NCBI GenBank assembly: GCA_900314565.1
Contig: OMVU01000013.1
Location: 1 to 45,912, forward strand
Direction of reading: 5' to 3'
Length of the DNA: 45,912 nt
Source of the DNA: an uncultured Eubacteriales bacterium
Lineage (GTDB): Bacteria; Bacillota; Clostridia; Lachnospirales; Lachnospiraceae
The translations under genes were made by a program, and so were the position numbers. The notes beneath the pieces are model-generated. The model was not told the DNA's origin and did not search any database. It saw only the letters and a program-made list of their open reading frames with translations. The number at the start of each line of letters is the position of its first letter. The stretch's first letter is position 1. Shown here one piece after another: positions 1,556 to 20,680 of the stretch.

Positions 1556-1632
1556 CAATACCCGGCCAGACACAGGTGCCAAGGAGGCAGCGAACACTAT
1601 GGATCACCGGTCCGGCTTGATTGCTCAGGAAA

Positions 1633-1654: not shown

Positions 1655-1718
1655 TCCTTCACGTCACTTATGTATGACCTCAATTTGTAAGTCACGTATT
1701 TACTGTCTCTTTTTTAAA

Positions 1719-2690: not shown

Positions 2691-2696
2691 TATCTT

Positions 2697-4028
2697 TTAC
2701 CCCCTTCTCATGAACAGAGATTTGATCCATACTGCGATATTCTTTGTCAGGATCACTGCACCTTTGGTCGCCGCTCTGCAGCCAAAGAACAGGAGGATCG
2801 ACAGACCGGCGAGTACACTGCCGGCGCAGAGCATTACAATACCCTGCAATCCGTTGCCCTGGAAAAATGCCCAGATGCCCAGGACGACGCTCCCGACAGC
2901 ACCTGCCATAAAGGAGACCATTGTGGTCCAGAGCGAAATAACTGCGACCCAGATCACAACGTAAACAGAAAACAGAAGTGCAAAACCGACGATGAGCAAA
3001 GTGATCCAAATGGGAGCGCCCAGTGCCAAAAGAACGATTTCCCATGCCGGCAGGCTGCGATCCGGTCCCTCTGTTTTCCCGGAGTATCTGAAATTCGGGT
3101 TTTCTGCGTGAACCCTTGACGTGATTTTTGCGATAGATTCCATTTCTGCCACTGCCTCTCTTTCTGTAAGACCCGTTTCCATTTTCTGATCGATCTTTGC
3201 AGTGTAACGGGTAAGCTGTCTCTGCTTCTCTTCTTTCGGAAGATCCGATAATTCTTCTTCCAACCGGACAAGGAAATCCTGTTTCGTTTTTACCTGTCTC
3301 GCATTCCGAATGATAAAGAACAAAGCCCACACAATCAGAATGACCAAAACGGTCATGGGCACTGCTATGCGGAAGAAACCGGCAGATCCTGTATGCAGAC
3401 CGATGGCGAGCATCATGAGTGCGAACAGAACTGTATCCGCCGTTACCACAGCAAGTCCCTTTCGATCTTCCAGGTAATCAGCCAGGAGCCTGCTCCTTAC
3501 TGCGAACGGAAGGAACACCAGAGACAGTCCGAACAGAACTGCTGTGCCTGCTACAAAGAACCAGTTCCCGCCCGTGTAGAGGCAGCACACGCCAAAAAGC
3601 AGAAGAAGAGAAACGGTAAAGCTCCCAAGTGTCCACAGCCCTTTGTTCTCCGGTGCCATGAGCGGCACGACCAGGAGCGAAGCCGCGACAAGGAGGGAAG
3701 CGAGAACAATAAAGAACCAATCGAGACCCGATCCTGATGCCAGATTAACGATGAGGCATATTAATACAGGAACCATGAAGATGCCGGCGATTACACTGCC
3801 GATCACAGCAGATCTGCGCTTAAAGAACCTGCGCTGCCCGGCGATCACGTCTTCTTTCTCGAAATTGATCGCCGTTTCAACCTCCTCGCTCTTCATTCGT
3901 CCAAGCAGTGCCCGGCAGTCCGCGCATTCCGCAAGGTGCTCTTCCACCATCCTGCGGCTGGCTTTGCTTGCTACGTTGTCGATATACAGCGGAATCAGAT
4001 CCCGGATAACATCACATTCATATTTCAT
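2697..4028 (-). CDS. Anti-sigma factor with zinc finger and HAAS (DUF1700-like) domain
   Basis: The product has 443 residues and overlaps the sigma gene by four bases (ATGA). The N-terminus is a ZAS-type zinc-binding anti-sigma domain: Cys5, then His31-x3-Cys35-x2-Cys38 in EEHLAECADC. A long multi-spanning membrane region follows (about 70-240). Next is a cytoplasmic helical segment at about 245-305 (QDFLVRLEEELSDLPKEEKQ ... TEREAVAEM) that matches the HAAS/DUF1700 signature, then further membrane helices to the end. HAAS domains are normally found in separate proteins, so this is a composite. It presumably holds the adjacent ECF sigma factor at the membrane until a signal arrives. Confidence 0.8.
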   Translation of the reverse strand: MKYECDVIRDLIPLYIDNVASKASRRMVEEHLAECADCRALLGRMKSEEVETAINFEKEDVIAGQRRFFKRRSAVIGSVIAGIFMVPVLICLIVNLASGSGLDWFFIVLASLLVAASLLVVPLMAPENKGLWTLGSFTVSLLLLFGVCCLYTGGNWFFVAGTAVLFGLSLVFLPFAVRSRLLADYLEDRKGLAVVTADTVLFALMMLAIGLHTGSAGFFRIAVPMTVLVILIVWALFFIIRNARQVKTKQDFLVRLEEELSDLPKEEKQRQLTRYTAKIDQKMETGLTEREAVAEMESIAKITSRVHAENPNFRYSGKTEGPDRSLPAWEIVLLALGAPIWITLLIVGFALLFSVYVVIWVAVISLWTTMVSFMAGAVGSVVLGIWAFFQGNGLQGIVMLCAGSVLAGLSILLFFGCRAATKGAVILTKNIAVWIKSLFMRRG

Positions 4029-4522
4029 TTGCTATCCATCCTTTCCTGAATTTTCAGTCTGGCGCGATGATAAGTAACGCGTGCCCAGTTCTCTGTTTTT
4101 CCGAAGATGGTACCGATCTGCCGGAAAGACAGTTCACCGAAACAGCGGAGCTGAAAGACCTCTTTATACGGTTCTTCCAAAGAATGCAGGATCAGGTGAA
4201 TTCTGAAAGAATCGTCTTTGTCCGCTGCGCGTTCCCCGAGTCCGGAACCCGAGTCCGGAATCTCTTCCGGAATCACGGCATCGCTTCGGCGGGCATTTCT
4301 GCGCATCTCGTCGTGAAACAGATTCTTTGCGATCGCGCAGAGCCAGGTGAACTCATCGCTGTTCCCGCGAAAGGACTGCCTCGCGGTCATGGCCCGGTAA
4401 AAGGTTTCCTGTGTGATTTCTTCCGCCAGATCTTTTTCTCCGGCTAAAGTCATCACAAAGGAATAGACTTTCATGAAGTAAGTCTCATACAGCTTTTGTG
4501 AGGTTTCCCTGTCCGTAATCAT
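4025..4522 (-). CDS. ECF-type RNA polymerase sigma factor
   Basis: The product has 165 residues, the usual ECF length. Region 2 is visible as LAEEITQETFYRAM ... FTWLCAIAKNLFHDEMRR and region 4 as LRCFGELSFRQIGTIFGKTE followed by the recognition helix NWARVTYHRARLKIQ. The ribosome site AAAGGAGG lies only two or three bases from the ATG. The gene starts an operon with its anti-sigma factor (4-base overlap) and a DUF4097 protein. A typical ECF promoter lies directly upstream (4549-4576), so autoregulation is likely. The regulon beyond this operon cannot be read from here. Confidence 0.93.
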   Translation of the reverse strand: MITDRETSQKLYETYFMKVYSFVMTLAGEKDLAEEITQETFYRAMTARQSFRGNSDEFTWLCAIAKNLFHDEMRRNARRSDAVIPEEIPDSGSGLGERAADKDDSFRIHLILHSLEEPYKEVFQLRCFGELSFRQIGTIFGKTENWARVTYHRARLKIQERMDSK

Positions 4523-5834: not shown

Positions 5835-8672
5835 TTAATTGTTATCAGTATCCTTACAATTGAGTATTTCGCGAAGCAGACCGGCAGTCACACGCGCCGC
5901 TGCCTCATGGCAGGCATACCCCGGATGCTCACGGGACCCCATTGTCTCCTCCGTGGCCTGCGGCAGCGAAAGATACCATACATTCGGATCATTGTTCTCC
6001 CGGCGATACCGGTCGATGGCATTTTTGATCTGCAGGCTCAGCATTTCTCCCAGCATTCCATAAGCCCAGACGATCTTTGCGTGAGGGTTCATGCTCCGGA
6101 TCTCGCTCAGGAAGGAAAAAACTGCATTTTCCAGAAGCAGAAGGCTTTCCGGAGTATTCCTCTGGCAGAAAGTTTCTCCGTCTTCCCCTGTCCATTCAGG
6201 TGAATCCATCGCGCCCACGTCATTCGCGCCGAGGTTAATGATGACCGCGTCCGCCTGCCAGTCCGAAAAATCATATTTCCAGTCGGAACCGTATTTTTTT
6301 CCCTCAGGGCTTTTGGAAATGCCGCAGACCTGCGAATAGTATTTCGGCAGAGCATGGCCCGGATCATTTTCCCAGCCTGAACGAATTCCCCAGCCGCTCT
6401 GACTGATCACATGAAAGTCTGCACCGATGAGGTCTGATGCCATTCTCGCCCAGGTACGGCTGGCACTGAAAAGTGCCGGGACCCAGTCCGTCTCACTCCG
6501 TGCACCGATGACTCCCTCCCCGCTCGTCAAACTGTCGCCAACGAACTCGAGCCGATATCGGGAATCGGGGAGAGGAAGGAATTCTCCGCCGTCCGCATGG
6601 ATGGCAGTAAGGCAGAGAAAGTGCTCATCATCCTCAAATACCGGCTGCGTCTCCTTAAAAAGGCGGATATGTTTCGCCACCCCGGGCGTCATTCCCCTGA
6701 GCAGGCTGATCCGATTAATTCCCCGGGAAAGCGGCATACGGATAATCGGTGCACCGTTCAGCTCTGCGGCGATCCAGGGCTCCACCTTCGTAAAGGATGC
6801 CTGAAGATCCACAGACAGGTCTGTCCCGGTGAACAGGAACTCTGCTCCGCTGCCGGCCCAGAACAGAGGAAAGCCTCCCTCTTTCCGGACAGCCTGCCGG
6901 TCTATGCGGCCATGCAGCCGAAGATTCGGAACAAATGCAGGCTTCTTTTTCGTCAGATCCATAAGGTCTTTACAAAGCTGCTCCAGGCGCTCATCGGCGT
7001 CATTCGCATTTTTACCGCAGACTCCGTAATAGAACTTGATCTTCGGTTCCGTCCCGGAAGGACGGACGCAGCACCAGGCATTTCCGGAAAGCTCATAGTA
7101 GAGCACGTCGGATTTCGGAAGACCGGTCGGCGTCCTGCTCTGCTCCGCAAGTTCCGTACGCACGCCGGAAGCATAATCCCGTACCGCAAGGACTTCACAG
7201 CCTCCGATCCTGTCAGCCGGAGCACTGCGAAGATCCTCCATGAGCGCTTTGATCAGCTCGCTTCCCTCCGCGCCTTTCCACTCAATGGAAGTCAGGCCTT
7301 CTTTATAATACCCGTACTTCCTGTAAAGGTCTTCCATCGCGTCACAGAGTGTTTTTCCCTCTGCCTTATAGAATGCCGCTGCCTCGCAGAGCATCATGAC
7401 CGCCGCGCAGGCATCCTTATCCCGGGCGTATGTCCCCGGAAGACAGCCATAACTCTCCTCGAATCCGAAGACATAGGAGTTTTCACCTGTCTCTTCAAAC
7501 TTTTTGATCTGCTCCCCGATGTACTTGAACCCGGTCAGTACCTCGATGAGATCTGTATTGTATTCGCGGGCAAGCGGCTTTGCCATATCCGTAGATACGA
7601 TCGTCTCAATAAGGGCAGGTCTCTCCGGCATGATCCCGAGTTTTTTCTTCTCCCTGAGAATATATTCGGCAATCAGGATGCCGGACATGTTCCCTGTAAA
7701 GGACCTGTACTCTCCTGTCTTTGCATCCTTAGCGTAAACGCCGAGCCGATCCGCGTCGGGATCCGTTGCCAGCACTATGTCCGCATCTTTCTCTTCTGCG
7801 AGCTTCAGAACAAGTTCCCAGGCTTTCGGATCTTCCGGGTTCGGATAAGCCACCGTCGGGAAATTCCCGTCGGCAATTTCCTGGCTGGGTTCCACAAAGA
7901 CCTGTGTGAATCCCAGTTCCCTGAGGACACGGCATACGGGGATATTCCCGGTCCCGTGCAGAGGCGTATAGGCGATCTTAAAGGACGATGCCTGCGCCCG
8001 GATCACATCCGGATGAATGGAAAGAGAACGGATCTCAGAGATATACGCATCATCGATCTCCTGACCGATCGTATGATACAGACCGGCTTCTTCTGCGTCA
8101 ACACGGGACATGGTCTTTACTTCGGCAAATGACGTGACCCGCCCCACTTCCTCGAGTATATTTCTGTCATGTGGAGGTGTGATCTGCGCACCGTCCTCCC
8201 AATAGACTTTATATCCGTTGTACTCCCGCGGATTGTGACTTGCCGTCACGACGATCCCGGCGATGCAGTGCAGATAACGGACCGCATAGGAGAGCTCCGG
8301 TGTCGGCCGAAGGGAATCGAAGCGATATGTGCGGATCCCATTTGCATTCAGAACGAGCGCCGCCTCCATCGAGAACTCCGGTGACATACGCCTCGAATCG
8401 TAAGCAATCGCGACCCCTTTCTCCTGACCGCCCTGTGAAATGATGTAATTCGCCAGCCCCTGTGTCGCCAGACGGACCGTATAGATATTCATTCGGTTCG
8501 TTCCGGCTCCGATCACGCCGCGCAGACCGCCTGTACCGAATGTGAGACTTCTGTAAAATCTGTCTGTGATCTCTTTCTCATCCCCTGCAATGTCTCTCAG
8601 TTCGCGTTTTGTATCCTCGTCAAAATAAGGATCAGAGAGCCACTCTTCATACACTTTCTCCGCATCTGTCAT
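5835..8672 (-). CDS. Phosphohexomutase fused to CE2-type acetylesterase
   Basis: The product has 945 residues and two complete enzymes. Residues 1-575 are a phosphoglucomutase/phosphomannomutase: TASHNPREYNG with phospho-Ser145, metal loop DPDADRLG (303-310), sugar loop GFEES (402-406) and phosphate loop RPSGTEPK (536-543). After a short linker at about 576-584, residues 585-945 form a CE2-type esterase. It has the beta-sandwich start LRLHGRID, then an SGNH domain with GDSLTSGEG (Ser713), INLGAND (811-817) and a C-terminal REHPG (His915). R. intestinalis carries separate mutase and CE2 genes in its mannan locus. The likely work is Man1P to Man6P plus deacetylation of imported manno-oligosaccharides. 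No signal peptide is seen, so it is cytoplasmic. It is the last gene of the operon, with a good site GGAGGAA before ATG. Confidence 0.9.
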   Translation of the reverse strand: MTDAEKVYEEWLSDPYFDEDTKRELRDIAGDEKEITDRFYRSLTFGTGGLRGVIGAGTNRMNIYTVRLATQGLANYIISQGGQEKGVAIAYDSRRMSPEFSMEAALVLNANGIRTYRFDSLRPTPELSYAVRYLHCIAGIVVTASHNPREYNGYKVYWEDGAQITPPHDRNILEEVGRVTSFAEVKTMSRVDAEEAGLYHTIGQEIDDAYISEIRSLSIHPDVIRAQASSFKIAYTPLHGTGNIPVCRVLRELGFTQVFVEPSQEIADGNFPTVAYPNPEDPKAWELVLKLAEEKDADIVLATDPDADRLGVYAKDAKTGEYRSFTGNMSGILIAEYILREKKKLGIMPERPALIETIVSTDMAKPLAREYNTDLIEVLTGFKYIGEQIKKFEETGENSYVFGFEESYGCLPGTYARDKDACAAVMMLCEAAAFYKAEGKTLCDAMEDLYRKYGYYKEGLTSIEWKGAEGSELIKALMEDLRSAPADRIGGCEVLAVRDYASGVRTELAEQSRTPTGLPKSDVLYYELSGNAWCCVRPSGTEPKIKFYYGVCGKNANDADERLEQLCKDLMDLTKKKPAFVPNLRLHGRIDRQAVRKEGGFPLFWAGSGAEFLFTGTDLSVDLQASFTKVEPWIAAELNGAPIIRMPLSRGINRISLLRGMTPGVAKHIRLFKETQPVFEDDEHFLCLTAIHADGGEFLPLPDSRYRLEFVGDSLTSGEGVIGARSETDWVPALFSASRTWARMASDLIGADFHVISQSGWGIRSGWENDPGHALPKYYSQVCGISKSPEGKKYGSDWKYDFSDWQADAVIINLGANDVGAMDSPEWTGEDGETFCQRNTPESLLLLENAVFSFLSEIRSMNPHAKIVWAYGMLGEMLSLQIKNAIDRYRRENNDPNVWYLSLPQATEETMGSREHPGYACHEAAARVTAGLLREILNCKDTDNN

Positions 8673-8691: not shown

Positions 8692-9387
8692 TCAAGGCGT
8701 TCGCCTGTCTTTTCTTATATTCTGTTCAAGTTCCGCCCGGTCTGCGGGACCCGCCTGCTTTTCCAGCTTCAGAAATATTCCCGTAAGGAACCAGGAACTG
8801 AAATACGCTATCACCGCAGCACCGATGATCCCCCACAAAAAAGCCGCGGCAAAAAATGTTTCGGGAGACAAAAGGAACCACATGACCGGAAAAAGATGGA
8901 GCACCGCAATAAGGACCGTCTGCGAAAGGTGTGTGACCGCAAGCCGCCAGGCATTTCCGAGATGGCTGCGGACTGTATTTTCAAACCAGGCTGCCAGCGG
9001 GAACGCATAGATAGCCACAGAAACAGCTGCAGCAAGGAGCATCAGGATGACGCCGTAAAAAAGACTTCCCGACGGAGAATGCATATGTCCGATAATGTGG
9101 AGATCCGCACCGAGAACAAGGAAAATAATGAGGAACACAGCTCCCATCGCACAGCCCTTTTTCAGATTTTCCCGAAAAGCCGCAAAATACGCGGATACGA
9201 CCGGCGGATCTTCATTCCGCATCCATTTAAAAATCACGGTATAGAGCGCAATGAAAGCGGCACCTGCCGTAATGACCGGAAGGGAACAGATCAGGCAGAG
9301 GATGTTCAGCAGAAGCAGGTCGAACACGCGCGTCAGAATTGTAAAAAAAGGATTGTCCGGCTGAAAAAAACCGTTTTTGCTGTTCAT
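8692..9387 (-). CDS. DUF624 (YesL-like) membrane protein
   Basis: The product has 231 residues from the ATG at 9387; GGAGGT abuts an earlier ATG at 9393 but is correctly spaced for this one. The N-terminus NPFFTILTRVFDLLLLNILC and about five hydrophobic helices match DUF624/YesL. These small integral membrane proteins are habitually encoded with sugar ABC transporters and glycan-degrading enzymes in Firmicutes. Their role is unproven; assembly or accessory function for the transporter is often assumed. It lies 19 bases upstream of the mutase-esterase gene in the same operon. Confidence 0.8.
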   Translation of the reverse strand: MNSKNGFFQPDNPFFTILTRVFDLLLLNILCLICSLPVITAGAAFIALYTVIFKWMRNEDPPVVSAYFAAFRENLKKGCAMGAVFLIIFLVLGADLHIIGHMHSPSGSLFYGVILMLLAAAVSVAIYAFPLAAWFENTVRSHLGNAWRLAVTHLSQTVLIAVLHLFPVMWFLLSPETFFAAAFLWGIIGAAVIAYFSSWFLTGIFLKLEKQAGPADRAELEQNIRKDRRTP

Positions 9388-9419
9388 TATCATACCTCCG
9401 TTCCATTATGCATCAGAGC

Positions 9420-10043
9420 TCAGGCCAATAAGCTGACCAGAGCAGATACTTCCTTCATGTGCTCGCTTTCACACATCACAGCCGCAAGATAATCAGGTGC
9501 CGTATCCCCTGTCAGGCTTTTCCATCGGGAGCTTCCCGCAAGTCGCAGGCCGTAGGGCAGGATCTCGCCGCGCCCGGTCTCATGATCCTCCATGGATATT
9601 TCTTCTGTATCGAGATAGCCTGCCGTCCTGAACAGCCTTCCTTCATTTGCAGCTGCTTTCGCCGTGTCCTCCGCGAGAACTCCGGTGATATCCTGAAAAT
9701 ACCCGTAAGCGGCAAGCGTCCGGATGACATCCTCACCTGCTATGACCACATCCACATCATGGTTGTATAAAAGCACCTGGAGCCGCTCCACATCCTTCGC
9801 GTTATCGGAACGGAAGGTGTCGTCAAGCGTAATTCTCCAGGCATCTTCTCCCGCCAGATCCGCTCGCAGTCTGTCCGCCTCTTCTTCCGAAAGCGTCACG
9901 TCGAACACGGCCACGTACAGGATCGGTTCGGGTTTCGGATGAAAGAAATTCCAAATCAGGAAGAGAACAGCTGCAGCAATCCCTACTGCCGCTGCGCACG
10001 GCCATATATCATAAGTCAAAAAACGTTTCCAGCGCACCTTCAC
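9420..10043 (-). CDS. Membrane-anchored protein of unknown function in the mannan operon
   Basis: The product has 207 residues and probably starts at GTG (10043), eight bases after GGAGGAGG. One transmembrane helix near the N-terminus (about 14-34, AAAVGIAAAVLFLIWNFF) anchors an extracytoplasmic domain. Segments such as ILYVAVFDVTLSEEEADRL and VDVVIAGEDVIRTLAAYGY resemble a small substrate-binding-protein or receiver-like alpha/beta fold. I do not recognise a named family. Its position between YesL and a GH130 phosphorylase, tightly spaced, suggests it partners with YesL at the membrane; that is inference. Confidence 0.65.
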   Translation of the reverse strand: MKVRWKRFLTYDIWPCAAAVGIAAAVLFLIWNFFHPKPEPILYVAVFDVTLSEEEADRLRADLAGEDAWRITLDDTFRSDNAKDVERLQVLLYNHDVDVVIAGEDVIRTLAAYGYFQDITGVLAEDTAKAAANEGRLFRTAGYLDTEEISMEDHETGRGEILPYGLRLAGSSRWKSLTGDTAPDYLAAVMCESEHMKEVSALVSLLA

Positions 10044-10056
10044 GATGCCTCCTCCG

Positions 10057-11079
10057 TTAGCGTCTTCCCACTTCGGAATCCGACTTGCGGATGACAGAAT
10101 TTTCCTTAATGTAGTCTATGATCAGATCCAGTTCTGTGAATGCCAGAGAAACATAACTGTCCGCACAGCCGTAATAAATCGCAATTCTGCCGGTCTCAGC
10201 ATCGTGGATCGTAGCGCACGGGAAGCAGACATTCGGTACGAAGCCCCTCTCTTCATACCACTCTTCCGGCGTCAGCAGGAAAGTCCGGCAGCGGTACAGG
10301 ACCTTTGACGGCTCATCCCTGTCCAGGATCGCCCCGCCGATAGAATACACCAGTCCGTTGCATGTACCTGTCACGCCGTGATAGAACAGAAGCCATCCTT
10401 CACTGGTCTCGATCGGGGCAGCCCCCGCACCGATCTTAACTGCTTCCCACCATTTTTCCGATTTCCCCATCACATGGCGGTGCTTTCCCCAGTAGACAAG
10501 ATCCGGGCTCTCGGAGAGATAAATATCTCCGAAAGGTGTGTGTCCGCTGTCAGACGGGCGGGAAAGAAGCATGTATTTTCCGCCGATTTTGCGCGGAAAA
10601 AGCACCGCGTTCCGATTGAACGGCAGGAATGGATTCTCAAGCCGGGTCCAAGTTTTAAAATCATCCGTTTTTGCCATGCCGATCGTCGCTCCATATGCAT
10701 CCTGGCACCAGATCGCATAAAAGCTGTCCTCAATTTTCACGAGTCTGGGATCATATGCGTAAGAGGGCATGAACGGCTGACCGTTCTCATCAACAAAAGG
10801 TACCTTCTCCTCATCAAAATCCCAGCGAATGCCATCCTCACTTCTGCCGAAATAGACATAGGGTATGCCATCCTTCTGTTCTCCCCGGAAGACTCCGACA
10901 AACTTTCCCTCATATGGAATCACCGCGCTGTTAAAGATCCTTGCTACATTCTTCAACGGATTTCTGCGAATCACCGGATTGTCCCTGTAGCGCCAGATCG
11001 GAATATCCGTGATGCTTCCTTCGATATCCTGCCACGGCATATTCGGTACCGCCGGTGCATTTAAGATCTGATATTTCAT
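10057..11079 (-). CDS. GH130 beta-1,4-manno-oligosaccharide phosphorylase (subfamily 2-like)
   Basis: The product has 340 residues and a perfect ribosome site (GGAGGTGAAGC before ATG). It is a five-bladed propeller glycoside phosphorylase of family GH130. Visible are NPVIRRNPLKNVARIFNSAV near residue 35-55, the conserved YAYDPRLVKI segment with the general-acid Asp region, the phosphate-site residues around LLSRPSDSG, and YYGCADSY near the end. Length and motifs fit the R. albus RaMP2-type enzyme, which phosphorolyses manno-oligosaccharides from the non-reducing end to mannose 1-phosphate. The substrate class is inferred from the neighbouring GH130_1 and epimerase genes. It is cytoplasmic, with 24 bases to the upstream gene. 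Confidence 0.88.
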   Translation of the reverse strand: MKYQILNAPAVPNMPWQDIEGSITDIPIWRYRDNPVIRRNPLKNVARIFNSAVIPYEGKFVGVFRGEQKDGIPYVYFGRSEDGIRWDFDEEKVPFVDENGQPFMPSYAYDPRLVKIEDSFYAIWCQDAYGATIGMAKTDDFKTWTRLENPFLPFNRNAVLFPRKIGGKYMLLSRPSDSGHTPFGDIYLSESPDLVYWGKHRHVMGKSEKWWEAVKIGAGAAPIETSEGWLLFYHGVTGTCNGLVYSIGGAILDRDEPSKVLYRCRTFLLTPEEWYEERGFVPNVCFPCATIHDAETGRIAIYYGCADSYVSLAFTELDLIIDYIKENSVIRKSDSEVGRR

Positions 11080-11103: not shown

Positions 11104-12309
11104 TCAAAGAGATTCTTCGACAGTATGCGGAGCATTGTTCTCCCTCTCCAATATTTCCAGATTCCTGTCAATCAGTTCACATCGCTTACGGACACAGAGT
11201 ACGCTCCGGCCCGGATCCGGCGGGGTATTAAATATATAGTCCGAAAGCTGGGCTATACTGGTCTTCGCCACATAGACCCGGGTATCGCTTCCCGCGTAAT
11301 AGAGAAGGATCTCACCGTTTTCTTTGACAATTGCCCCGTTTGAAAATACGACGTTCGACACGTCGCCGACCCGTTCCCAGCCGAGCGGCCCGAGCAAAAG
11401 TCCGCCCGGCTCGGCAATCACTCTGGAAGGATCCTCCCGATCCGTCGCGTAAGCATAGAGCACATACCGTAATCCGGCTGCTGTATTGCGCACTCCGTGG
11501 GCGATATGGAGCCATCCCCTCTCCGTCCCGATCGGCACGATGCACTCCCCATTCTTCGATTCCGTTATCTGATGATATCTTCTCCGGCTCAGGATCTTTT
11601 CCTCGTCGATCACGGCGTGTTCAATGTCCTCACAGAGGCCAAAGCCGATTCCTCCACCGCCGCCTGTCTCAATAAAGCTGTCCATCGGGCGCGTATAGAA
11701 AGCATACTTTCCGTCCACGAACCCCGGGTGAAGGACGACATTGCGCTGCTGAGGCGACCGCAGGGTCACAAGGTTCGGAAGCCTCTCCCAGCTCTTCAGA
11801 TCCTTCGTCCGCACGATACCGGCGGCAGCGACTGCGGCTGACGGATCATCTGACCGGTCATCATGGCTCTCCGAGCAGAATACGCCGTAGATCCATCCGT
11901 CCTCGTGCTGTGTAAGTCTCATATCGTAGACATTTGTTTCCTCCGGGCAGGTATCTTCAAAGAGGATCGGCCTGTCCCAAAACCGGAAACCGTCAAGCCC
12001 GCTGTCGCTCTCCGCGACTCCGAAAAAAGACTTGCGGTCCGCCCCCTCGATCCGGGCAACGAGGTAATACTTTCCATTCAGGCTGATTGCACCGGAATTC
12101 AGCACCGCATTTATCCCGAGCCGCTCCTCGAAGAACGGATTCGTTCCCGTATCAAGGTCATACCTCCAGGTCAGCGGAATATGTTCCCTCGTCAGGACCG
12201 GGTTCTTATACCGGGTAAAAATGCCGTTATAGAAACGGGCCGGTTCATTTTTTCTGGCAAGAAGCCGCTCCTGCTTTTCTTTTTCTACATAGTACTGTTC
12301 ATGTAACAT
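11104..12309 (-). CDS. GH130 4-O-beta-mannosyl-glucose phosphorylase (subfamily 1-like)
   Basis: The product has 401 residues. The N-terminal extension and the motifs [41 protein letters not shown] and [12 protein letters not shown] match the RaMP1/BfMGP type of GH130. That enzyme splits mannosyl-beta-1,4-glucose with phosphate to mannose 1-phosphate and glucose. Its start overlaps the epimerase stop by 11 bases, so the two are translationally coupled. This fits the pathway, because the epimerase makes its substrate from mannobiose. It acts in the cytoplasm. Confidence 0.9.
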
Positions 12310-13465
12310 TTCGTTTTATCATCTCCAGACACATTCTTCCGTTGTGGTAGGGGCACTTCCACGGTTCCACGATCGGCCCTTTCTCCGGGATCCCGTCCGT
12401 CGTCAGGGACCAGAACCATTCACCGCCCTCCCGCCTGTCAATAAAGTTATCCCTTATATAGACCCATATGCTTTCGGCAGCATCCAGATACCGTTCCTCT
12501 TCCGGCATCTTCTGGTACGCGTCAACAAAGCCGTTGATACTCTCAGCCTGGACCCACCAGATACGGCCTTCTTTTTTGACGCCCGCTTCCATTTCCGACA
12601 CTACAGATCTTCCGTCATAGGCGGCCTCATACACGGCTTCCGTGAGAACGGCTGCCATCTTGCGTGTCTCAAGAATGGCTGCATCGTCTTCAAGGACTTC
12701 GGCCGTCCGCGTAAGGAGCCAGGCCGCTTCAATGTCGTGGCCGTAAGAAGTAAGATCGATCAGAGACTGATAGTCTCTGTCAAAAAAGACTTCCTGCCTT
12801 CTCTTTTCGGAATTGAAAATATGCTCCCTCACAATATTCAGGATCTCATAGAGCCGATCTGCGACCTCCTGATCCCGGGTCACCCGGTAAAGCTCAGTGT
12901 AGGCTTCCATCACATGCAGGATCGTATTCATGGTCCGGACCGCCGTGACTCCGTTCTCCGACAGTTTTTCGTTGTCGACAGGACGGAACTCTCTGTCGAA
13001 AGCTTCCAGATACCCGTCCCGATCCCGCATGCGCGTTTCGATCAGTCTGAAGAGCTGCATTGCGATCTCGAGCGCCTCCGGGTCTTTCCGCATCCCATAG
13101 TAAGCGGAAAGACCATAGATGGCAAAGGCCTGGTTGTAGGTATGCTTTGTCGTGTCAGAAGGTGTGCCGTCATAGTTCACCGACCAGAATACCCCGCCGA
13201 ATTCTCGGTCGAGGCATCGTTCTTTCAGGAACAGAAACGCGTGCTCCGCCTCCCCGGACAAGTCTTCTCTTCCCAGTGCTTCCGCAGCGCTCGAGAAGAA
13301 CCAAAGTATACGGCTGTTCAGGATCGCGCCTTTTTTCGCCTCCCGGTCTACTCTGAGATTATAATCCATATACCCGTAAAAGCCACCATATTCTTCATCC
13401 CGAAGGCTGCTCCAGAAGGGGATCAGCCGCTGTTCCAGATGACTTCTGATTTCCTCGACCATCAT
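12299..13465 (-). CDS. Cellobiose/mannobiose 2-epimerase (AGE family)
   Basis: The product has 388 residues from the ATG at 13465 ([18 protein letters not shown]). This matches the known start and length of R. albus cellobiose 2-epimerase, so the upstream ATG at 13483 is rejected. It is an (alpha/alpha)6-barrel enzyme with the family's essential histidines visible in [27 protein letters not shown] and the C-terminal [11 protein letters not shown]. It converts the reducing-end mannose of beta-1,4-mannobiose to glucose, giving mannosyl-glucose for the GH130_1 phosphorylase. It is cytoplasmic and part of the operon, directly downstream of the permeases. Confidence 0.92.
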
Positions 13466-13539
13466 AGCTTTCCGTCCTTTCATTTCGTCGCGGGGACCGG
13501 CCCCTTTACCGTACGGGTCAGCCGTCTCCCGCCGTCTTT

Positions 13540-14391
13540 TTATCCTTTCACAGCGCCTGCTGCAACGCCGTTGTATATCTGTTTCTGAAAGAGCAGGAAA
13601 ATGATCAGTGCCGGAAGCAGCGACATGATAACACCTGCGCAGATCAGTTCATACTGGTTGCCCATCGGACCTGTAAATGTATAGAGCGATGTCGCGACCG
13701 TGCAGAGATTTCTCTTGTCCTGCAGATACAGATTGGCGCAGTAGTATTCGTTGTAAACGCCGACTCCCTTTAAAATGAGATTCGTCATGATCGCCGGCTT
13801 TAAAAGCGGCAGAAGTATTGACCAATAGATCCTGAAATAGTTCGCGCCGTCCAGATAAGCACTCTCATCCAGAGAGATCGGCAGATTTTCAAAGAATTGG
13901 ATGTATATGTAAATGGACATGACATCCGTTCCCATCATCATGATGATGTATCCGTACAGCGTGTTGATGAAACCCAGCTGCTGCATGATCTGGTATACGG
14001 AGACCTGCATCGCGATGCCCGGAAGCAGCGCCGCAAACGTGAACATGTTCCGTATCAGGCTGTTCCCCGGAAATCGGAACCGATTCAGTACATAAGCGAG
14101 CGAGGAACCAATCAGCGTGGAGCCTGCCAGGACAAAGATCAGGATCAGGAACGAGTTGAAAAATGCCCGGCCCATATTCGCTTTCTGGAAAGCATGGAGA
14201 TAGTTGGCAAAATTCAACCAGTTTTCCGGCAGCGTCATGACGGTCGTGCGCTGGTACTCCTCCGATGTCTTAAAGGAAGTGATGACACAGGAGACGATCG
14301 GCAGGATTGCCATGAACGAGCAGAAGATCACGGAAAAATATTTAACGATCAACCATGCGATCGATCCGGGAGTATACTTATTCTTCGTCAT
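13540..14391 (-). CDS. Carbohydrate ABC transporter permease (MalG type)
   Basis: The product has 283 residues with six predicted membrane helices. It carries the EAA loop signature DESAYLDGANYFRIYWSILLPLLKPA, which docks the ATPase, and the typical short C-terminus ending in AGAVKG. It starts with GAGAGGAG before ATG, two bases past the stop of the first permease. By position it is the second permease of the manno-oligosaccharide importer. No ATPase gene is in the locus, so a shared MsmX/UgpC-type ATPase elsewhere is expected, as is usual for this class. Confidence 0.93.
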   Translation of the reverse strand: MTKNKYTPGSIAWLIVKYFSVIFCSFMAILPIVSCVITSFKTSEEYQRTTVMTLPENWLNFANYLHAFQKANMGRAFFNSFLILIFVLAGSTLIGSSLAYVLNRFRFPGNSLIRNMFTFAALLPGIAMQVSVYQIMQQLGFINTLYGYIIMMMGTDVMSIYIYIQFFENLPISLDESAYLDGANYFRIYWSILLPLLKPAIMTNLILKGVGVYNEYYCANLYLQDKRNLCTVATSLYTFTGPMGNQYELICAGVIMSLLPALIIFLLFQKQIYNGVAAGAVKG

Positions 14392-14393
14392 GA

Positions 14394-15344
14394 TTACACT
14401 CCTCTCTTTAATACGGCTCTGCGTACTTTTTTCTGAGGCTTTTCATCCGTTCCCGCATTGCGGAACAGGAATCTGAACAGCGCATCCTGCAGGAATTTGG
14501 CGATGATGATGATCGTCAGGAGGAACACGGCCATTGCACTCGCCAGACCGACCTTCTGACTCGTGTGTGCGATGTCGTTCATGACGACGAAGAATGTTGC
14601 CGTTCCGTTCGCGCCGCTGGTGATAACATAAGGCGGTTCGAACGCGGAGAGGGATCCGGTGATAGAAAGGATCACATTCAATGTAACGATTGTTTTGATG
14701 GAAGGAAGAATAATGTGCCAGAAAATATCCCACTTATTGGCTCCGTCGATTGCGGCCGCCTCATAGAGCGTATTGTCGACAGACATCATCGCTCCGAGGA
14801 AAAGGACCATCGTCGAGCCAAGATAGCGCCATACCGAGGAGTACACCAGCGACCAGTTGTTGATAGCCTGATCCTTCAGCCAGTACGGCAGATTATCAAG
14901 CTTGAATCCCAGTGCCATCAGAACGGAGTCCAGAACGAACCCTCTTGTATAGAAGAACTTGAAAATAAAACCGATCGCGATACCGCTGATCAGATATGGG
15001 AAGAAAATGAATCCTTTCCAGAGGTTCTCAAATTTCACCTTGAAGCAGAATACTGTGGCCAGGTACAGGGCCAGGAAGACCTGGACGACCGATCCCACCA
15101 TATAGTAGAGGGAAAGGAGCAGCGTCCGGATGATATCGTCTCTCTGGAAGATCTGACGGTAGTTTCGCAGTCCCACGAACTTCCTTGCGCCGATATACTT
15201 CATATTATAGAAGCTGAACTGTACCATTTTCAGAAACGGAAAATACGTGAAGAGAATAAGGAGGCCGACCGGAATCAGTAGAAATGCAATGATCACAGTA
15301 GTCTGCCGGCCCCTTCTGCTCTTCCAGAAACTTGTACTATTCAT
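14394..15344 (-). CDS. Carbohydrate ABC transporter permease (MalF type)
   Basis: The product has 316 residues with six membrane helices. Its EAA loop reads YEAAAIDGANKWDIFWHIILPSIK, the ATPase-coupling motif. The N-terminus is basic (WKSRRGRQTTVI) and the C-terminus is rich in Lys/Arg, as expected for cytoplasmic ends. It is preceded by GAGAGGATG and lies 115 bases after the binding-protein gene, beyond a strong hairpin. It forms the membrane channel with the gene at 13540-14391 for import of manno-oligosaccharides. Confidence 0.93.
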   Translation of the reverse strand: MNSTSFWKSRRGRQTTVIIAFLLIPVGLLILFTYFPFLKMVQFSFYNMKYIGARKFVGLRNYRQIFQRDDIIRTLLLSLYYMVGSVVQVFLALYLATVFCFKVKFENLWKGFIFFPYLISGIAIGFIFKFFYTRGFVLDSVLMALGFKLDNLPYWLKDQAINNWSLVYSSVWRYLGSTMVLFLGAMMSVDNTLYEAAAIDGANKWDIFWHIILPSIKTIVTLNVILSITGSLSAFEPPYVITSGANGTATFFVVMNDIAHTSQKVGLASAMAVFLLTIIIIAKFLQDALFRFLFRNAGTDEKPQKKVRRAVLKRGV

Positions 15345-15459: not shown

Positions 15460-16887
15460 TTATTTTGTGATCTCTACATTATTGAGTTCCTGCGCTTCGG
15501 TCCAGGCAGCGTTCCATTTTTCCATAATCGCATCGAACGTCATATCTCCGTTGGATGCATGCTCGACGATTTCCTGGATCTTCTTGTCGCCGCCATTATT
15601 CAGATTCAGTTCGGAATCGGCATTCAAAAGATCAAGAAGGTCTTCCTCTCCCTCAACTGCAGGGTCATCAAAGACATAATCGATGCCATCAAATGCTGCA
15701 TACAGTTCCGGATATTTGTTGTCAGAAGCGCAGATCGGAATCCCGCCTTCGTTATAAGAGAACCCTGATTTTTCTGTCATCCACTTAACAAAGATAAGGG
15801 CTGCCATACGGTTCTCATCGGAAGAATCCTTGTTGATACCGAACGCGTAGTCCGCACCTGCGGAAGCGTACTGCTTGCCGCCGACAGTGATCGGGAAGCT
15901 CATATAGCCGATATCTTCCGGCTTGTCACCCGCTGCCTGCATCTGAGAATATGCCCAGGAACCAAGTACCATCGTTCCGATCTCACCGCGGTTCATCATG
16001 CCTTTGGAACCTTCCCAGTCGGTCGTGGAATAATCGTCCTCGGTGAGCCCTTCTGCTACCGCGTCATAGAGAACTTTATAGATGTTGTAAGCATGGCTTC
16101 CATCTCCCGGATCGGAGAAGGGGTTGGCAGTATGGAGCATTTTGCGGTTCGTATACTCGGAGTCGCCTGTCGCAGTTCCGCCGATGTACGCATCCCATGC
16201 ACCCATGGTCCACCCGGCCGCGTAGTTCGTATACAGCGGGATCGCGTCTGTCTTCTCTTTGATCAGCTTCAGGTCTGCAATAAAATCTTCAGGTGTTTTC
16301 GGAAGCTCTGTAATACCGGCCTTCTCGAATACTGCCTTGTTATAGAGCACACCCTGTGCAGCTCCTGTGGAAGGAATGCCATATACAGTCCCGTGATACT
16401 GCTTGGCGCTCGCGAAACGGATCTGCCCTTCCATTGTCTCCAGATCGCCGTAGGGCATGAAATAGTTCCCGAATTCCTCAGCGTCAATTGCCGGGATCAT
16501 CATGATATCGCCCCATTCACCGCCCTGCATACGAAGCAGCGCATCCTCGGCATAATTCGTAATTCCCTCGATGTCGATCTCGATATTCGGATACATCTTA
16601 TGAAATTCATCAATGTAAGACTGATAGTTCGTTCCGGGATAATCCGTCGCCAGCATATCTGTCCTGTGCGTAAGCAGCTTTAACTTTGCGGAAATGTCTG
16701 TCCCGGTCTCACCGAGTACAATATTCGCGTAGTTTCCGTCAGGCCCGTTCTTGTCATATTCCACTTTCGATTCCGCCGGTTTTGTCTGTGTGCTCTCACC
16801 TGAGGAAGCCGAAGAACCTCCGCAGGCTGCAAGCGATAACGTCATTACCGTTGCCATAGCCACTGCCATTACTTTTCTTGCTTTCAT
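15460..16887 (-). CDS. Extracellular sugar-binding lipoprotein of ABC importer
   Basis: The product has 475 residues. The N-terminus is a lipoprotein signal peptide (KARKVMAVAMATVMTLSLAAC) with the lipobox Cys at residue 22, followed by a Ser/Gly-rich linker. The mature part shows the cluster-B/family-1 binding-protein pattern: YQSYIDEFHKMYPNIEIDIE, then FIADLKLIKEKTDAIPLYT, YAAGWTMGAWDAYIGG and GTMVLGSWAYSQMQAAG. It should capture manno-oligosaccharides at the cell surface, as the R. intestinalis mannan-binding protein does. The substrate is inferred from the locus. Its promoter and a palindromic operator lie directly upstream, and it is the first gene of the catabolic operon. Confidence 0.9.
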   Translation of the reverse strand: MKARKVMAVAMATVMTLSLAACGGSSASSGESTQTKPAESKVEYDKNGPDGNYANIVLGETGTDISAKLKLLTHRTDMLATDYPGTNYQSYIDEFHKMYPNIEIDIEGITNYAEDALLRMQGGEWGDIMMIPAIDAEEFGNYFMPYGDLETMEGQIRFASAKQYHGTVYGIPSTGAAQGVLYNKAVFEKAGITELPKTPEDFIADLKLIKEKTDAIPLYTNYAAGWTMGAWDAYIGGTATGDSEYTNRKMLHTANPFSDPGDGSHAYNIYKVLYDAVAEGLTEDDYSTTDWEGSKGMMNRGEIGTMVLGSWAYSQMQAAGDKPEDIGYMSFPITVGGKQYASAGADYAFGINKDSSDENRMAALIFVKWMTEKSGFSYNEGGIPICASDNKYPELYAAFDGIDYVFDDPAVEGEEDLLDLLNADSELNLNNGGDKKIQEIVEHASNGDMTFDAIMEKWNAAWTEAQELNNVEITK

Positions 16888-16950: not shown

Positions 16951-16978
16951 ATTATAGTTAATATATCCGGGATGTCAA
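16951..16978 (-). promoter_or_regulatory. Sigma-A promoter of the mannan catabolic operon
   Basis: On the minus strand a consensus -35 TTGACA (16973-16978) and a -10 TATAAT (16951-16956) are 16 bases apart. They are 64 bases before the binding-protein ATG, with the perfect operator palindrome in between. The surrounding intergenic stretch 16888-17247 is AT-rich and otherwise holds only the terminator of the LacI gene at 17149-17186. Confidence 0.8.
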
Positions 16979-17247: not shown

Positions 17248-18273
17248 TTAACGGGTGATCTCCCGAACTGTATTTCCCTCGATAAGCCTTCCTCTGGCAA
17301 GTATGGTGCAGAACGGCCAGTCTGTTTCCTCAAGGCGGGCTTTGATCAGCGTCATCATCTGCCGCACGATGGCCTTCATATTCACCTCGTATGTCGTCAG
17401 TGACACTTCCGGGTTCTCCTCCGGCAGGTAATGGTCAAAACTGACGACAGAGATATCTTCCGGAACGCGATACCCTGCTTCCTTCAGCTTTCCGATCATG
17501 AGCCGGGCGGTAAAATCACAGTTGCAGAAGAAAGCTGACGGCATGTTTTCCGGGTCCGGCAGGCAGAGCGTTCCCTCGGCTCCCACTTTCCCGGTCTCCG
17601 TGCTGCGATCATCAACGATCCAGCTCTGCTCCACCGTCTTTTTGGCCAGCACCATTGCTTTATAATATCCCAAATAACGGTCATCTATGCTCGGCGTCAT
17701 ATGCAGCGTCCCTACAAAACCGATTTTTTCATGACCCCGTTCAAGGAGGTAATTCGTCATCAGATATCCGCCCATGGAATTATCCACGATGATTGCATCC
17801 CCATCCACCTCTTCATAGACAGAATCCAGGGAAAAAAGCGGAATCTCTGACTGTTCGTTCAGCATTGTCAGATACGACCGATGGAAAACGCCAAGCACGA
17901 CCAGCACATCAGCCTTTTTGAACCGCAAAATTTTGGGCACTTCACAGGCCAGTTCCTCCTCACCGGATACCACCTCGAACAGGGAAAACCCTTCATGGCG
18001 CATCGCCTCCTGAGACAGTTCCTGATACATCTTCCAGTAAAAAGACTGTTTTTCCGAAATGAACCGTTCAGCGACAATGACACCCACAACGATCTGCTTT
18101 TTTTCTGCCCGTTTACTTTCCGCGGGAATATACCCCTGCCGCTCTGCCTCCGACAGGATCTCCTCCCTCAGTTGCTTCCCAACTCCACTTTTCCCGGACA
18201 GGGCTTTCGATACCGTCACGACCGAAACACCGACCTTTGCCGCAATATCTGTCATTGTTACTTCTTTTTTCAA
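17248..18273 (-). CDS. LacI-family transcriptional regulator (first)
   Basis: The product has 341 residues. The N-terminal LacI helix-turn-helix is clear (VTMTDIAAKVGVSVVTVSKA, then hinge-like GKSGVGKQLREEILSEA), followed by a periplasmic-binding-protein-like effector domain. Effector-site features include FSLDSVYEEVDGDAIIVDN, NYLLERGHEKIGFVG and DISVVSFDHYLPEENPEVS. Translation starts at TTG (18271-18273), 11 bases after AGGAG. The next in-frame ATG would cut into the HTH, so TTG is preferred. It lies between the second LacI gene and the catabolic operon and probably represses the latter; the inducer is likely a manno-oligosaccharide. Confidence 0.9.
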   Translation of the reverse strand: MKKEVTMTDIAAKVGVSVVTVSKALSGKSGVGKQLREEILSEAERQGYIPAESKRAEKKQIVVGVIVAERFISEKQSFYWKMYQELSQEAMRHEGFSLFEVVSGEEELACEVPKILRFKKADVLVVLGVFHRSYLTMLNEQSEIPLFSLDSVYEEVDGDAIIVDNSMGGYLMTNYLLERGHEKIGFVGTLHMTPSIDDRYLGYYKAMVLAKKTVEQSWIVDDRSTETGKVGAEGTLCLPDPENMPSAFFCNCDFTARLMIGKLKEAGYRVPEDISVVSFDHYLPEENPEVSLTTYEVNMKAIVRQMMTLIKARLEETDWPFCTILARGRLIEGNTVREITR

Positions 18274-18289
18274 TTTCTCAGCTTCTCCT

Positions 18290-18470
18290 GTTTATCTGAA
18301 TGTTGCCATTCGCATTCCGCTTGCGCTCCATGCTCATGTCGCGCTGTCGCGCTATCGCCTGTTCGCAATATGTGCGGCCTTGTGAGCAAGCTCCCGGCCG
18401 CCCATTTGCTCCATCCGGCACCGCTCGTAGATACGCGCAAATTTCCGTTTTTTCTCTGACGGCGCGTGAA
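18290..18470. other. GC-rich intergenic segment with short repeats between the two LacI genes
   Basis: The 200 bases between the two LacI genes hold no ribosome site or convincing gene. They contain GCGCGACA twice in tandem (minus strand, about 18335-18350), a GAATG/CATTC inverted repeat at about 18297-18318, and GC content above the flanking AT-rich control regions. The compositional break suggests an inserted REP/MITE-like sequence or the remnant of one. No T-run terminator for the upstream gene is obvious. Confidence 0.3.
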
Positions 18471-18474
18471 AATC

Positions 18475-19509
18475 TTATATCTTTCGAATAGAATCCCGCA
18501 GAACCATATGTGAGTCCACCTCACAGATCACTCCGGTCGATCCGGGACCGATCAGCCCCCGGATCACGAGTCTGACCGCACATCGTGCCATATGTTCCAT
18601 ATCCACATGATATGTTGTCAGACGTCCTGCCAGCGGATGATTATACAGATAATCATCGTAACTGGCGATAGAAATATCCTCCGGTACAGAAAGGCCGCGC
18701 TCCTGCAGCGCGTCATAGAGATAGGATGCCGCCCAGTCACTGCTTGTCACAAAAGCCGTTGGCAGCGTGTCCGGCAGTACAACGAGTCCTCTTTCTTCTT
18801 TCCCGTAACGATCGGGAAGTACCCATTCCTTCCTTACGCTCAGACCGTTCTCGCGCATGCATTTCTTATAGCCGTAATATCGATCGATAATATTTCTGGA
18901 GTAATCGAGCGAACCGACAAATCCGATTTCCCGGTGTCCGGCCCGGATCAGTTCCCGCGCGGACCGATACATACCATAATAGTCCCCGGATAATACACAG
19001 GAAACATCGTCGTCGAAGATAGGCTGATCCAAAAGTACGATCGGACCGTCGAACGCCTTCTTCAGACGTCTTTTGTATCCGTCATCCATCGGTCCGATCA
19101 GAATCAGTCCGTCGATTTCCTGATTTGCGATCTGAGGCGGGATCGCAGACTCCTCACTGTCGCTTTTCCAGATTATAAGAGATGTCAGACATTTGAGACC
19201 GGAAGCGACATAAGCCGTTTTCTGATACATCTCCCAGTAGAAAGAAGTTCCGACAGAGATATAGCGATTCAGAACCATTACACCTATAGAAGCGCCTTCT
19301 TTCAGCTCTTCCGAAGCCTCTTTGTTCGAAGTCGTTCTCTGTCTGTATTTTGCCAGATCCAGCCCCCTGCGGAGGGCACATTCAAGAATCTGTTCGCGCT
19401 TCTCCTCGCTCACACCCTTCTTTCCGGCGAGCGCATTCGATACCGTGACCGCAGAAATACCGAGTTCTTCTGCAATATCTCTTAATGTAACTCCTTTTTT
19501 CGGCCGCAA
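18475..19509 (-). CDS. LacI-family transcriptional regulator (second)
   Basis: The product has 344 residues starting at TTG (19507-19509), six bases after GGAGAG. The open frame runs further upstream to 19593, but that would overlap the esterase gene and add 28 residues unlike the family. The HTH reads KKGVTLRDIAEELGISAVTVSN. The effector domain includes DGLILIGPMDDGYKRRL, HREIGFVGSLDYSRNI and DISIASYDDYLYNHPLAG. The ribosome site overlaps the esterase stop region (13 bases between genes), so the two form an operon. It is roughly 30-35 percent similar by eye to the first LacI; each may control one promoter or both may share operators. Confidence 0.9.
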   Translation of the reverse strand: MRPKKGVTLRDIAEELGISAVTVSNALAGKKGVSEEKREQILECALRRGLDLAKYRQRTTSNKEASEELKEGASIGVMVLNRYISVGTSFYWEMYQKTAYVASGLKCLTSLIIWKSDSEESAIPPQIANQEIDGLILIGPMDDGYKRRLKKAFDGPIVLLDQPIFDDDVSCVLSGDYYGMYRSARELIRAGHREIGFVGSLDYSRNIIDRYYGYKKCMRENGLSVRKEWVLPDRYGKEERGLVVLPDTLPTAFVTSSDWAASYLYDALQERGLSVPEDISIASYDDYLYNHPLAGRLTTYHVDMEHMARCAVRLVIRGLIGPGSTGVICEVDSHMVLRDSIRKI

Positions 19510-19522
19510 CTGTTCTCTCCTT

Positions 19523-20638
19523 TTATTCTGTATAGATAACAGACAGCAGGTAAAAGGTCTCTGCGTCTTCCTCTGATGCCTCTGTGATCTCAATCTCGAC
19601 CGTGTGGGCTGATTGCTTCTCCCGAATCGGAATTATCTGGAGGAACAGGCAGTCTCCCCAGTCTTCCTCAAAGTCTGCTTCCATAAGCAAAGCATGCTCC
19701 CTGTCTCCGTCTAAAATACAGATCGCTTTCGGAGCCGGATGTCGGACCGTCTTGCGATATTGTATTGCCAGGCTTGTCAGAGAAGGCAGAATGAACCGGA
19801 TGGAATCTCCTGACTTTCGCCCGATCCACCCATTTTTAAAGAAATCAAGATGCCCTGACTTCTCTTCAGGATCTGCCCGGAAGCCGGCCAGAGCCGGCGC
19901 GCTGTTCCTGATGGTCAGCCGATTTGCATGCTCGAAGCGGTTTAAGGTCATCGGCTGATATTCTGCTGTGCCGGACCGTTCGCATCCGCACTCCCGCAAT
20001 GCTGCATCCGTGCGCAGAGAAGACTCTTCCCGAATCTTTATAAGCTCACGTATAATTTCTTCCGCCAGCAGACCGTGTCCGAAGTCATTCGGATGCAGCC
20101 CGTCCGGTGTCAGTTCCTCCAACGTGTACATTCCTTCCCGCATGCGTCGATACACCGTATCCCGTATACTGACATGCGGTATCCCGTAATGATCGCCGAT
20201 GCGGATATGCTGGTCCTCGGCAGTCTTTCCACTGTCATAATATACATTATGGAGCAGCAGCACGCCGGGTTCGTTATCGTTGAGGAAGATCTGCCTCACT
20301 ACGCCCTCATAAGTCTCCATAAAAAAGTCATTCGGTTCATCATTTACGGAAAAATCCACAATGACAAAATCCGGCTGATAGCACAGAAGGTCCTCACGGA
20401 TCCGGGCAGCTCCAAAGTGGGAGGACGTACCCCCGATTCCCGCGTTTATGAAATGGAAAACTGCTTTCGGAAATGTTCTTCTCCACCAGTCGAACACCCG
20501 GAACGCATAGCACAGTGACGGATCGGACGCAAGTGATCCCTGTGTGATCGATCCGCCGAAAAATCCCAAATTGATCTCATCTCCGTTTTCCGCGCGTTTC
20601 ATCAGCTTCCTGATCCGCAGTTTTCCTTCTTCATACAT
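19523..20638 (-). CDS. CE17-type carbohydrate acetylesterase (SGNH plus C-terminal CBM-like domain)
   Basis: The product has 371 residues from the ATG at 20638; GAGGGT is too close to the ATG at 20644. The SGNH core has the nucleophile motif FFGGSITQGS (Ser about residue 30), GIGGTSSHFGAAR, VDFSVNDEP and the acid-base pair in TPDGLHPNDFGH. The last 140 residues are beta-rich and fit the C-terminal CBM35-like lid of R. intestinalis CE17, an esterase specific for axial 2-O-acetyl groups on mannose. There is no signal peptide, so it deacetylates imported oligosaccharides. Together with the CE2 domain it could clear all acetyl positions. It heads a two-gene operon with a LacI regulator. Confidence 0.85.
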   Translation of the reverse strand: MYEEGKLRIRKLMKRAENGDEINLGFFGGSITQGSLASDPSLCYAFRVFDWWRRTFPKAVFHFINAGIGGTSSHFGAARIREDLLCYQPDFVIVDFSVNDEPNDFFMETYEGVVRQIFLNDNEPGVLLLHNVYYDSGKTAEDQHIRIGDHYGIPHVSIRDTVYRRMREGMYTLEELTPDGLHPNDFGHGLLAEEIIRELIKIREESSLRTDAALRECGCERSGTAEYQPMTLNRFEHANRLTIRNSAPALAGFRADPEEKSGHLDFFKNGWIGRKSGDSIRFILPSLTSLAIQYRKTVRHPAPKAICILDGDREHALLMEADFEEDWGDCLFLQIIPIREKQSAHTVEIEITEASEEDAETFYLLSVIYTE

Positions 20639-20680
20639 GACCATACCCTCACTGTCTTTGTATAAATGTGATTTAGGTTA

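Follow-up and report, generated by a model that had tools for sequence, protein, structure and literature searches.

A predicted phosphohexomutase-CE2 acetylesterase fusion at the end of a mannan operon in an uncultured Lachnospiraceae genome

The window, which is the whole stretch of 45,912 nucleotides of contig OMVU01000013.1 that was analysed, holds a single open reading frame in which a phosphohexomutase is followed by a CE2 acetylesterase. It probably encodes one bifunctional cytoplasmic enzyme, in which a CE2 has been fused to a resident mutase and which serves the use of acetylated manno-oligosaccharides, the main effect of the fusion being equal production of the two activities. The basis for this reading is the intact frame, the folds and motifs of both enzymes, the place in an operon and the different relatives of the two halves. 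As a predicted natural bifunctional enzyme it would combine an early step of mannan use (deacetylation) with a late, hexose-phosphate step in one chain whose halves have different relatives.

Results

The fusion gene and its two halves

The gene and its parts are as follows.

5835..8672, minus strand: pgm-ce2 fusion gene, 945 aa, a single open reading frame without stop with Pfam domains of both enzymes
6948..8672, minus strand: phosphohexomutase (PGM/PMM) half, residues 1-575, ending in helix 556-575 (Pfam, paralogue alignment, model, Foldseek to PGM/PMM structures)
6921..6947, minus strand: hinge of about nine residues, 576-584, with pLDDT <50 at 577-581 in the AlphaFold2 model
5838..6920, minus strand: CE2 acetylesterase half, residues 585-945 (CE2_N and GDSL of Pfam, Est2A 3u37 by sequence, Foldseek)

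The first-pass annotation had described both enzymes in one 945-residue protein at exactly these coordinates, and one uninterrupted frame with the Pfam domains of both was found there; the strand, which it left unstated, is minus. The ATG start at the 8672 end has GGAGG seven bases ahead of it, and the 945 codons contain no internal stop. Chance cannot reasonably account for an open frame of this length with two whole enzymes in it.

All the catalytic motifs that had been named earlier are present. In the mutase half, PGM_PMM_I was matched at residues 44-177 (5e-41), II at 209-314 (2e-22) and III at 327-453 (7e-18), and the superfamily features are there, namely the active-site serine loop TASHNP at 143-148 with Ser145, DPDADR (DxDxDR) from 304, GFEES (GxEES) from 403 and RPSGTEP from 537, the last three of which we take to be the metal, sugar and phosphate loops of phosphohexomutases. 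PGM_PMM_IV was matched at 528-552 only, with 19.7 bits against a gathering score of 23.1, a score which the mutase of a congener passes narrowly with 25 bits. Residues 7-574 align with a stand-alone mutase paralogue of the same genome (G000:C113, 70%), and this alignment to residue 574 together with the structural model favours the presence of a domain IV in the fusion. In the other half, CE2_N at 587-702 (30.4 against 27.9 bits) is followed by Lipase_GDSL_2 at 710-894 (42 against 32.9 bits), which is the CE2 family architecture of an N-terminal domain and then an SGNH hydrolase domain, and its motifs GDSLTSGEG, GAND and REHPG start at residues 712, 815 and 914.

Neither half reaches its own NCBIfam equivalog cut-off (TIGR03990, 168 against 439 bits; NF042969, 40 against 500 bits), and the substrates of both halves therefore rest on context, from which mannose 1-phosphate is predicted for the mutase and manno-oligosaccharides for the CE2 half. 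Inspection of the sequence revealed no signal sequence ahead of the mutase, and the CE2 half is thus placed in the cytoplasm.

Structure and active site of the CE2 half

An AlphaFold2 model of the fusion, built on an alignment (A5) of 5 mutase rows and 31 CE2 rows, reached a mean pLDDT of 84 and a pTM of 0.64, at which the modelled arrangement of the halves with respect to each other is uninformative. The model shows the C-terminal mutase helix 556-575, then a hinge of low confidence and a CE2 fold from about residue 585. Est2A ranked first in a Foldseek search with this model (E 9e-43, TM 0.93 over the target), followed by PGM/PMM structures, and by sequence the CE2 half matched Est2A 3u37 with an E-value of 4e-83.

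The catalytic serine and histidine of the CE2 family are present as Ser714 and His916; the 4dev sequence has Ala at the position aligned with the latter. Position 816 is Ala, giving GAND for GTND, where Thr stands in at least 90% of 26 CE2 sequences. This Ala, which recurs in the CE2 remnant of a congener (G041, see below), could point to a CE2 half that is catalytically dead or serves mainly for binding or for mutase assembly, and non-catalytic binding at a CE2 active site is reported in the title of a paper (entry 2w9x). Such a role is nevertheless very unlikely, since Ser714, Asn817, Asp818 and His916, whose columns are invariant in the 26 CE2 sequences, have all been retained, and since the fold is near that of Est2A, which PMC5217386 describes as active.

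The mannan operon and its counterpart in the same genome

The fusion is the last gene of a same-strand operon that also encodes an ABC importer, two GH130 phosphorylases and a 2-epimerase of the cellobiose type, and the features found behind one another in this region are these.

8692..9393, minus strand: DUF624 / MusI-like membrane protein (DUF624 above cut-off; MusI_fam 122 vs 160 bits)
9420..10043, minus strand: protein without family match and with a hydrophobic N-terminus, homologues of which recur in mannan loci of congeners
10057..11079, minus strand: GH130, relative of beta-1,4-mannooligosaccharide phosphorylase (TM1225 1vkd, E 5e-145; 5ayd, E 1e-121)
11104..12309, minus strand: GH130, relative of 4-O-beta-mannosylglucose phosphorylase (5ay9, E 1.5e-177)
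12299..13483, minus strand: epimerase of the cellobiose 2-epimerase type by family matches, mannobiose 2-epimerase by context
13540..15344, minus strand: two ABC permeases, 13540-14391 and 14394-15344 (BPD_transp_1, both above cut-off)
15460..16887, minus strand: ABC solute-binding protein (SBP_bac_1, 102 vs 26 bits)
16951..16978, minus strand: candidate sigma-70-like promoter ahead of the binding-protein gene (12/12 consensus bases, a consensus match only)
17248..19593, minus strand: two LacI-type regulators, 17248-18273 and 18475-19593 (Pfam)
19523..20644, minus strand: CE17-like SGNH acetylesterase, upstream of the operon (6hfz, listed as GDSL-like protein, E 5e-101)

Sigma-70-like sites number 22 in the region against 12.2 in shuffles. 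The entry 6hfz is presumably the CE17 of R. intestinalis. The region thereby shows the genes typical of a Firmicute beta-mannan utilisation locus, with two GH130 types (their subfamilies being assigned from the closest structures), 2-epimerase, ABC importer, LacI, mutase, CE2 and CE17. The absence from the genome of any match to GH26 mannanase (PF02156), the enzyme with which primary degraders attack the polymer, at E <= 0.001 fits an oligosaccharide user rather than a polymer user.

Further along the window, all on the minus strand, lie a gene whose single protein product combines Nitro_FeMo-Co and FKBP-type isomerase domains (22325-23176), which is kept in G041, an RNA 2'-phosphotransferase of the Tpt1/KptA family (25436-26005), a 393-aa protein matching Tocopherol_cycl (33841-35022, E 4e-9), an unexpected family name here, an AAA_14/DUF4143 ATPase matching the PADLOC candidate PDC-S01 (37289-38614, E 8e-93) and an 844-aa PLD-like protein with weak PADLOC matches (42884-45418, PDC-M27B E 3e-16).

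A parallel operon on another contig of the same genome (G000:C113) contains three LacI regulators, binding protein, permeases, epimerase, both GH130 enzymes, a 616-aa phosphomannose isomerase-ROK protein, DUF624, mutase, a SASA acetylesterase gene and GH36, and the SASA gene starts 17 bases past the stop of the mutase. Both mannan-operon mutase genes of this genome thus precede an acetylesterase, each of a different family, one separate and one fused. The SASA gene is next after the mutase at L161 (the C113 operon, 15020-16558), L063 (G040, 1448-3076) and L170 (G026, 2989-4515) by Pfam, and these genes are a counterpart, from another family, of the fused CE2. The phosphomannose isomerase type I plus ROK kinase protein of the second operon (L161, 10716-12566, Pfam) was also seen in G021 (L059, 2931-4799, Pfam) and in G040 (L063, 6096-7946, by its start sequence), and would take mannose to fructose 6-phosphate by consecutive steps in one chain.

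Occurrence of the fusion

A search with the full protein found the fusion in 1 of 42 genomes of the genus, its own genome included; one congener (G018) has a separate and distant CE2 (37%). The CE2 half was matched in 44 of 397 genomes of the family, fused in one of the 44, in 27 of 392 genomes of the order and in 23 of 295 nearest relatives, and at the stricter 1e-60 in 8 of 391 genomes sampled from the class, in 5 of 299 from the phylum and in 3 of 13 from one outside family, all of these being overlapping samples whose counts are kept unmerged and in which some matches lie at contig ends. Throughout the six sets of CE2-half matches, a frame long enough for mutase and CE2 was listed from the own genome only (959 aa), the others being 568 aa at most. 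At least 514 CE2 relatives were confirmed in named genomes and 80 of their loci kept, and none of these 80 has a fused CE2, the CE2 open reading frames being 332-449 aa long and two of them (L111 and L160) reaching a contig end on the 5' side. Among viral contigs, 10 stretches matched a pattern, and none of these encodes a relative of the full protein.

Four long frames were considered as further fusions and rejected. L172 (frame 568 aa, open reading frame 528 aa) is without a mutase domain and L065 (530 aa) gave no mutase match, while the 862-aa frame of G005 contains an ordinary mutase of 563 aa and the 994-aa frame of G026:C423 is interrupted by a stop and resolves into a mutase gene and, behind it, a SASA gene of its own.

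No description of a mutase-esterase fusion protein was found in a literature search of open-access papers. Each half is of a known kind, and no second case of the two in one chain turned up in the genomes searched, nor any in the open-access papers. Abundant identical fusions, which the first-pass annotation had named as grounds for discarding the observation, did not appear in these genomes, where there is one intact example in all.

Integrity of the join

The last helix of the mutase continues in frame into the start of the CE2 half, the join being codons 574-585 at about 6918-6953. Its exact position rests on the assembled sequence, and the fusion is in this respect a predicted one. Two real genes made into one by a missed stop or a chimeric join could be imagined in an assembly of 191 contigs with 3.84% contamination and 4.2 Mb, compared with 1.7-4.1 Mb in the other 41 genomes of the genus, the more so as a second intact fusion was not found in the genomes searched. 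Such an error is nonetheless very improbable. The in-frame continuation of the helix argues against it, as does the sequence ahead of the CE2 half, which offers no good ribosome site, and codon use is even, with a cosine to the operon of 0.941 for the mutase half and 0.941 for the CE2 half and of 0.906 between the halves. A further argument against an assembly error is that the congener G041 carries the remnant of a CE2 at this locus.

This remnant is damaged and in pieces, at the matching place behind GH130 genes that are 92-95% identical in protein. The dN/dS of its pieces, compared with the species of the window, was 0.15 (96 codons) and 0.04 (25 codons), and 0.03-0.05 for the GH130 genes; the low values mean that the CE2 was under selection for much of that time, and with the position of the remnant they indicate that the CE2 belongs to the locus. 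The remnant starts just past the join and is therefore silent on whether the ancestor of G041 carried a fusion. The mannan locus of G041 (L055, G041:C77, 1800-6530) has several large deletions; the Nitro_FeMo-Co/FKBP gene abuts a cut permease, the epimerase and the mutase are missing, and both GH130 genes are whole.

A free esterase might also be made beside the fused one by an internal in-frame start at Met571, an ATG near the usual start of stand-alone CE2 proteins. The only candidate site for it, a GGAG, lies 18 bases upstream, a greater distance than a normal ribosome site allows, which makes the coexistence of fused and free esterase extremely unlikely.

Relatives of the halves

Trees were made from part of the sequences in hand, 41 CE2 rows and 19 mutase rows, leaving out a short fragment of G025 and mutase paralogues of 40-46%. 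The CE2 half groups with L081-L083 (support 100/99) within a wider clade (98/93) whose members are mainly from Clostridia, Faecalibacterium, Gemmiger and further Oscillospiraceae, one being labelled Eisenbergiella. The mutase half falls with the mutases of its own genus (99/98) and apart from those that stand beside CE2 relatives (100/100). The two halves have different relatives, and the tree gives the placement of the CE2 half, not the direction or the date of a transfer.

In the congeners G004, G021 and G025 the genes of the operon come in the order seen here as far as the mutase, and the mutase orthologues (73-84% identity) are cut short by the contig ends. No CE2 match was listed for these three in the genus search with the full protein or in the search of nearest relatives with the CE2 half. 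G040 has a similar operon, whose stand-alone mutase is complete; this mutase groups with the second operon (C113) and is for that reason not a direct counterpart. Joining contigs C14 and C89 of G021 (end of L058, start of L059) would place GH36 and not CE2 behind the mutase; the join was set aside with a repeat being equally possible. Over 99 bases that fall within the mutase gene the ends of these contigs are identical, which resembles an assembly broken at a repeat, perhaps one between mutase paralogues.

Predicted function and origin

We infer the activities, the substrates, the order of events and the effect of the fusion as follows. In the pathway as set out in PMC6385246 and PMC8262883, deacetylation by CE2 with CE17 is followed by phosphorolysis and a mutase step. 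Here the C-terminal CE2 half would strip 3-, 4- and 6-O-acetyl groups, as its characterised relatives do, from imported oligosaccharides, with the CE17-like esterase presumably working alongside it on 2-O-acetyl; the two GH130 enzymes would phosphorolyse the deacetylated oligosaccharides, and the N-terminal half would convert mannose 1-phosphate to mannose 6-phosphate. The fusion would have arisen when a CE2 gene of the Clostridia/Oscillospiraceae type became placed after the resident mutase, the final gene of the operon, and the intervening stop was lost, leaving almost no linker. Its main effect would be that both enzymes are made in equal amounts, which is the most likely gain because the GH130 and epimerase steps separate the two reactions.

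Two earlier proposals are less well supported. The conversion of mannose 1-phosphate had been called the last step, and an isomerase follows it according to PMC6385246 and PMC8262883. The fusion had also been thought to tie deacetylation to the mutase, but these steps are not consecutive and co-production is the most that can be expected, unless the CE2 half acts on an acetylated sugar phosphate.

This last case, in which the CE2 half would clear acetyl from acetylated mannose 1-phosphate made by GH130 and hand the product to a mutase that needs a free O6, as a pair for proofreading and mutase action, is unlikely. It would be in keeping with the stand-alone CE2 gene lying directly before the mutase gene, in reverse order, in 5 of the 80 loci kept from at least 514 relatives (L081, L082, L083, L088 and L157), with the SASA gene next after the mutase in G000:C113, G040 and G026, and with the removal of 3-, 4- and 6-O-acetyl by characterised CE2 relatives (PMC8262883 and PMC7666174). 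Adjacency is, however, to be expected of genes that serve this pathway from one operon, oligosaccharides were the substrates in the assays of the characterised CE2 enzymes, and 74 of the 80 kept loci (of at least 514) have no mutase in the flank, which covers up to 6 kb and is shorter in some. To our knowledge there is also no report of GH130 enzymes releasing acetylated mannose 1-phosphate. We give rather little credence to the further idea of an unnoticed pathway step, in which phosphorolysis of partly acetylated oligosaccharides would yield acetylated mannose 1-phosphate that blocks the mutase at O6, and a mutase-bound esterase would deacetylate it just before or within the same encounter. 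If it were true, the repeated pairing of mutases with two acetylesterase families, CE2 and SASA, would be a wider sign of it; with an esterase acting on acetylated mannose 1-phosphate the reactions would be consecutive and the repeated pairing explained. The question is thereby raised whether acetylated sugar phosphates really occur as intermediates in GH130 pathways. Should there be no coupling, the preferred reading of one bifunctional enzyme with equal production of its halves still leaves a neat example of two genes fused by the loss of a stop at an operon end.

Comparison with known systems

The CE2 domain of the C. thermocellum endoglucanase E (2wao, 2wab) has a far lower similarity to the CE2 half (E 3e-17). 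Like the fusion, that protein joins a CE2 to another catalytic domain; unlike it, the partner is a cellulase and the protein is secreted. The closest solved structure to the CE2 half is Est2A of Butyrivibrio proteoclasticus (3u37, 4dev), which stands alone and is described in PMC5217386 as an acetyl-xylan esterase, in both respects unlike the fusion, and which is listed there in the cytosolic proteome, like the cytoplasmic CE2 half. The first-pass annotation had taken the fusion to confirm that this CE2 works inside the cell. A cytoplasmic place is supported by the lack of a signal sequence on inspection, and the fusion adds support for cytoplasmic work of this CE2 type, but the proposal itself is older, having been made for R. 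intestinalis (PMC6385246) and F. prausnitzii (PMC8262883) besides the proteome listing of Est2A.

In activities and pathway the fusion is most like RiPgm and RiCE2 (ROSINTL182_05473) of the large mannan locus of R. intestinalis, which, like the present one, has GH130_1, GH130_2, an epimerase, an ABC importer and a second SGNH esterase. The two are described apart in PMC6385246, in agreement with the earlier statement that they are separate genes; they are two proteins there and one open reading frame here, with the mutase first. FpPmm and FpCE2 of F. prausnitzii belong to an oligosaccharide-using version of the pathway, as here, and are listed as separate enzymes in PMC8262883, unlike the fusion. 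A Faecalibacterium CE2 (L085), which falls within the wider clade of the CE2 half, likewise has mutase and CE2 as separate genes on its contig.

Enzyme fusions in mannan loci are already known. RiGH1 (ROSINTL182_05469/70), a predicted two-domain glucosidase-isomerase (PMC6385246), resembles the fusion in joining two enzymes in a mannan locus, one of them acting on hexose phosphate, and differs in its other domains and in an isomerase half that takes the step after the mutase. Another such fusion, the isomerase-ROK protein, is encoded in the same genome as the mutase-CE2 fusion.
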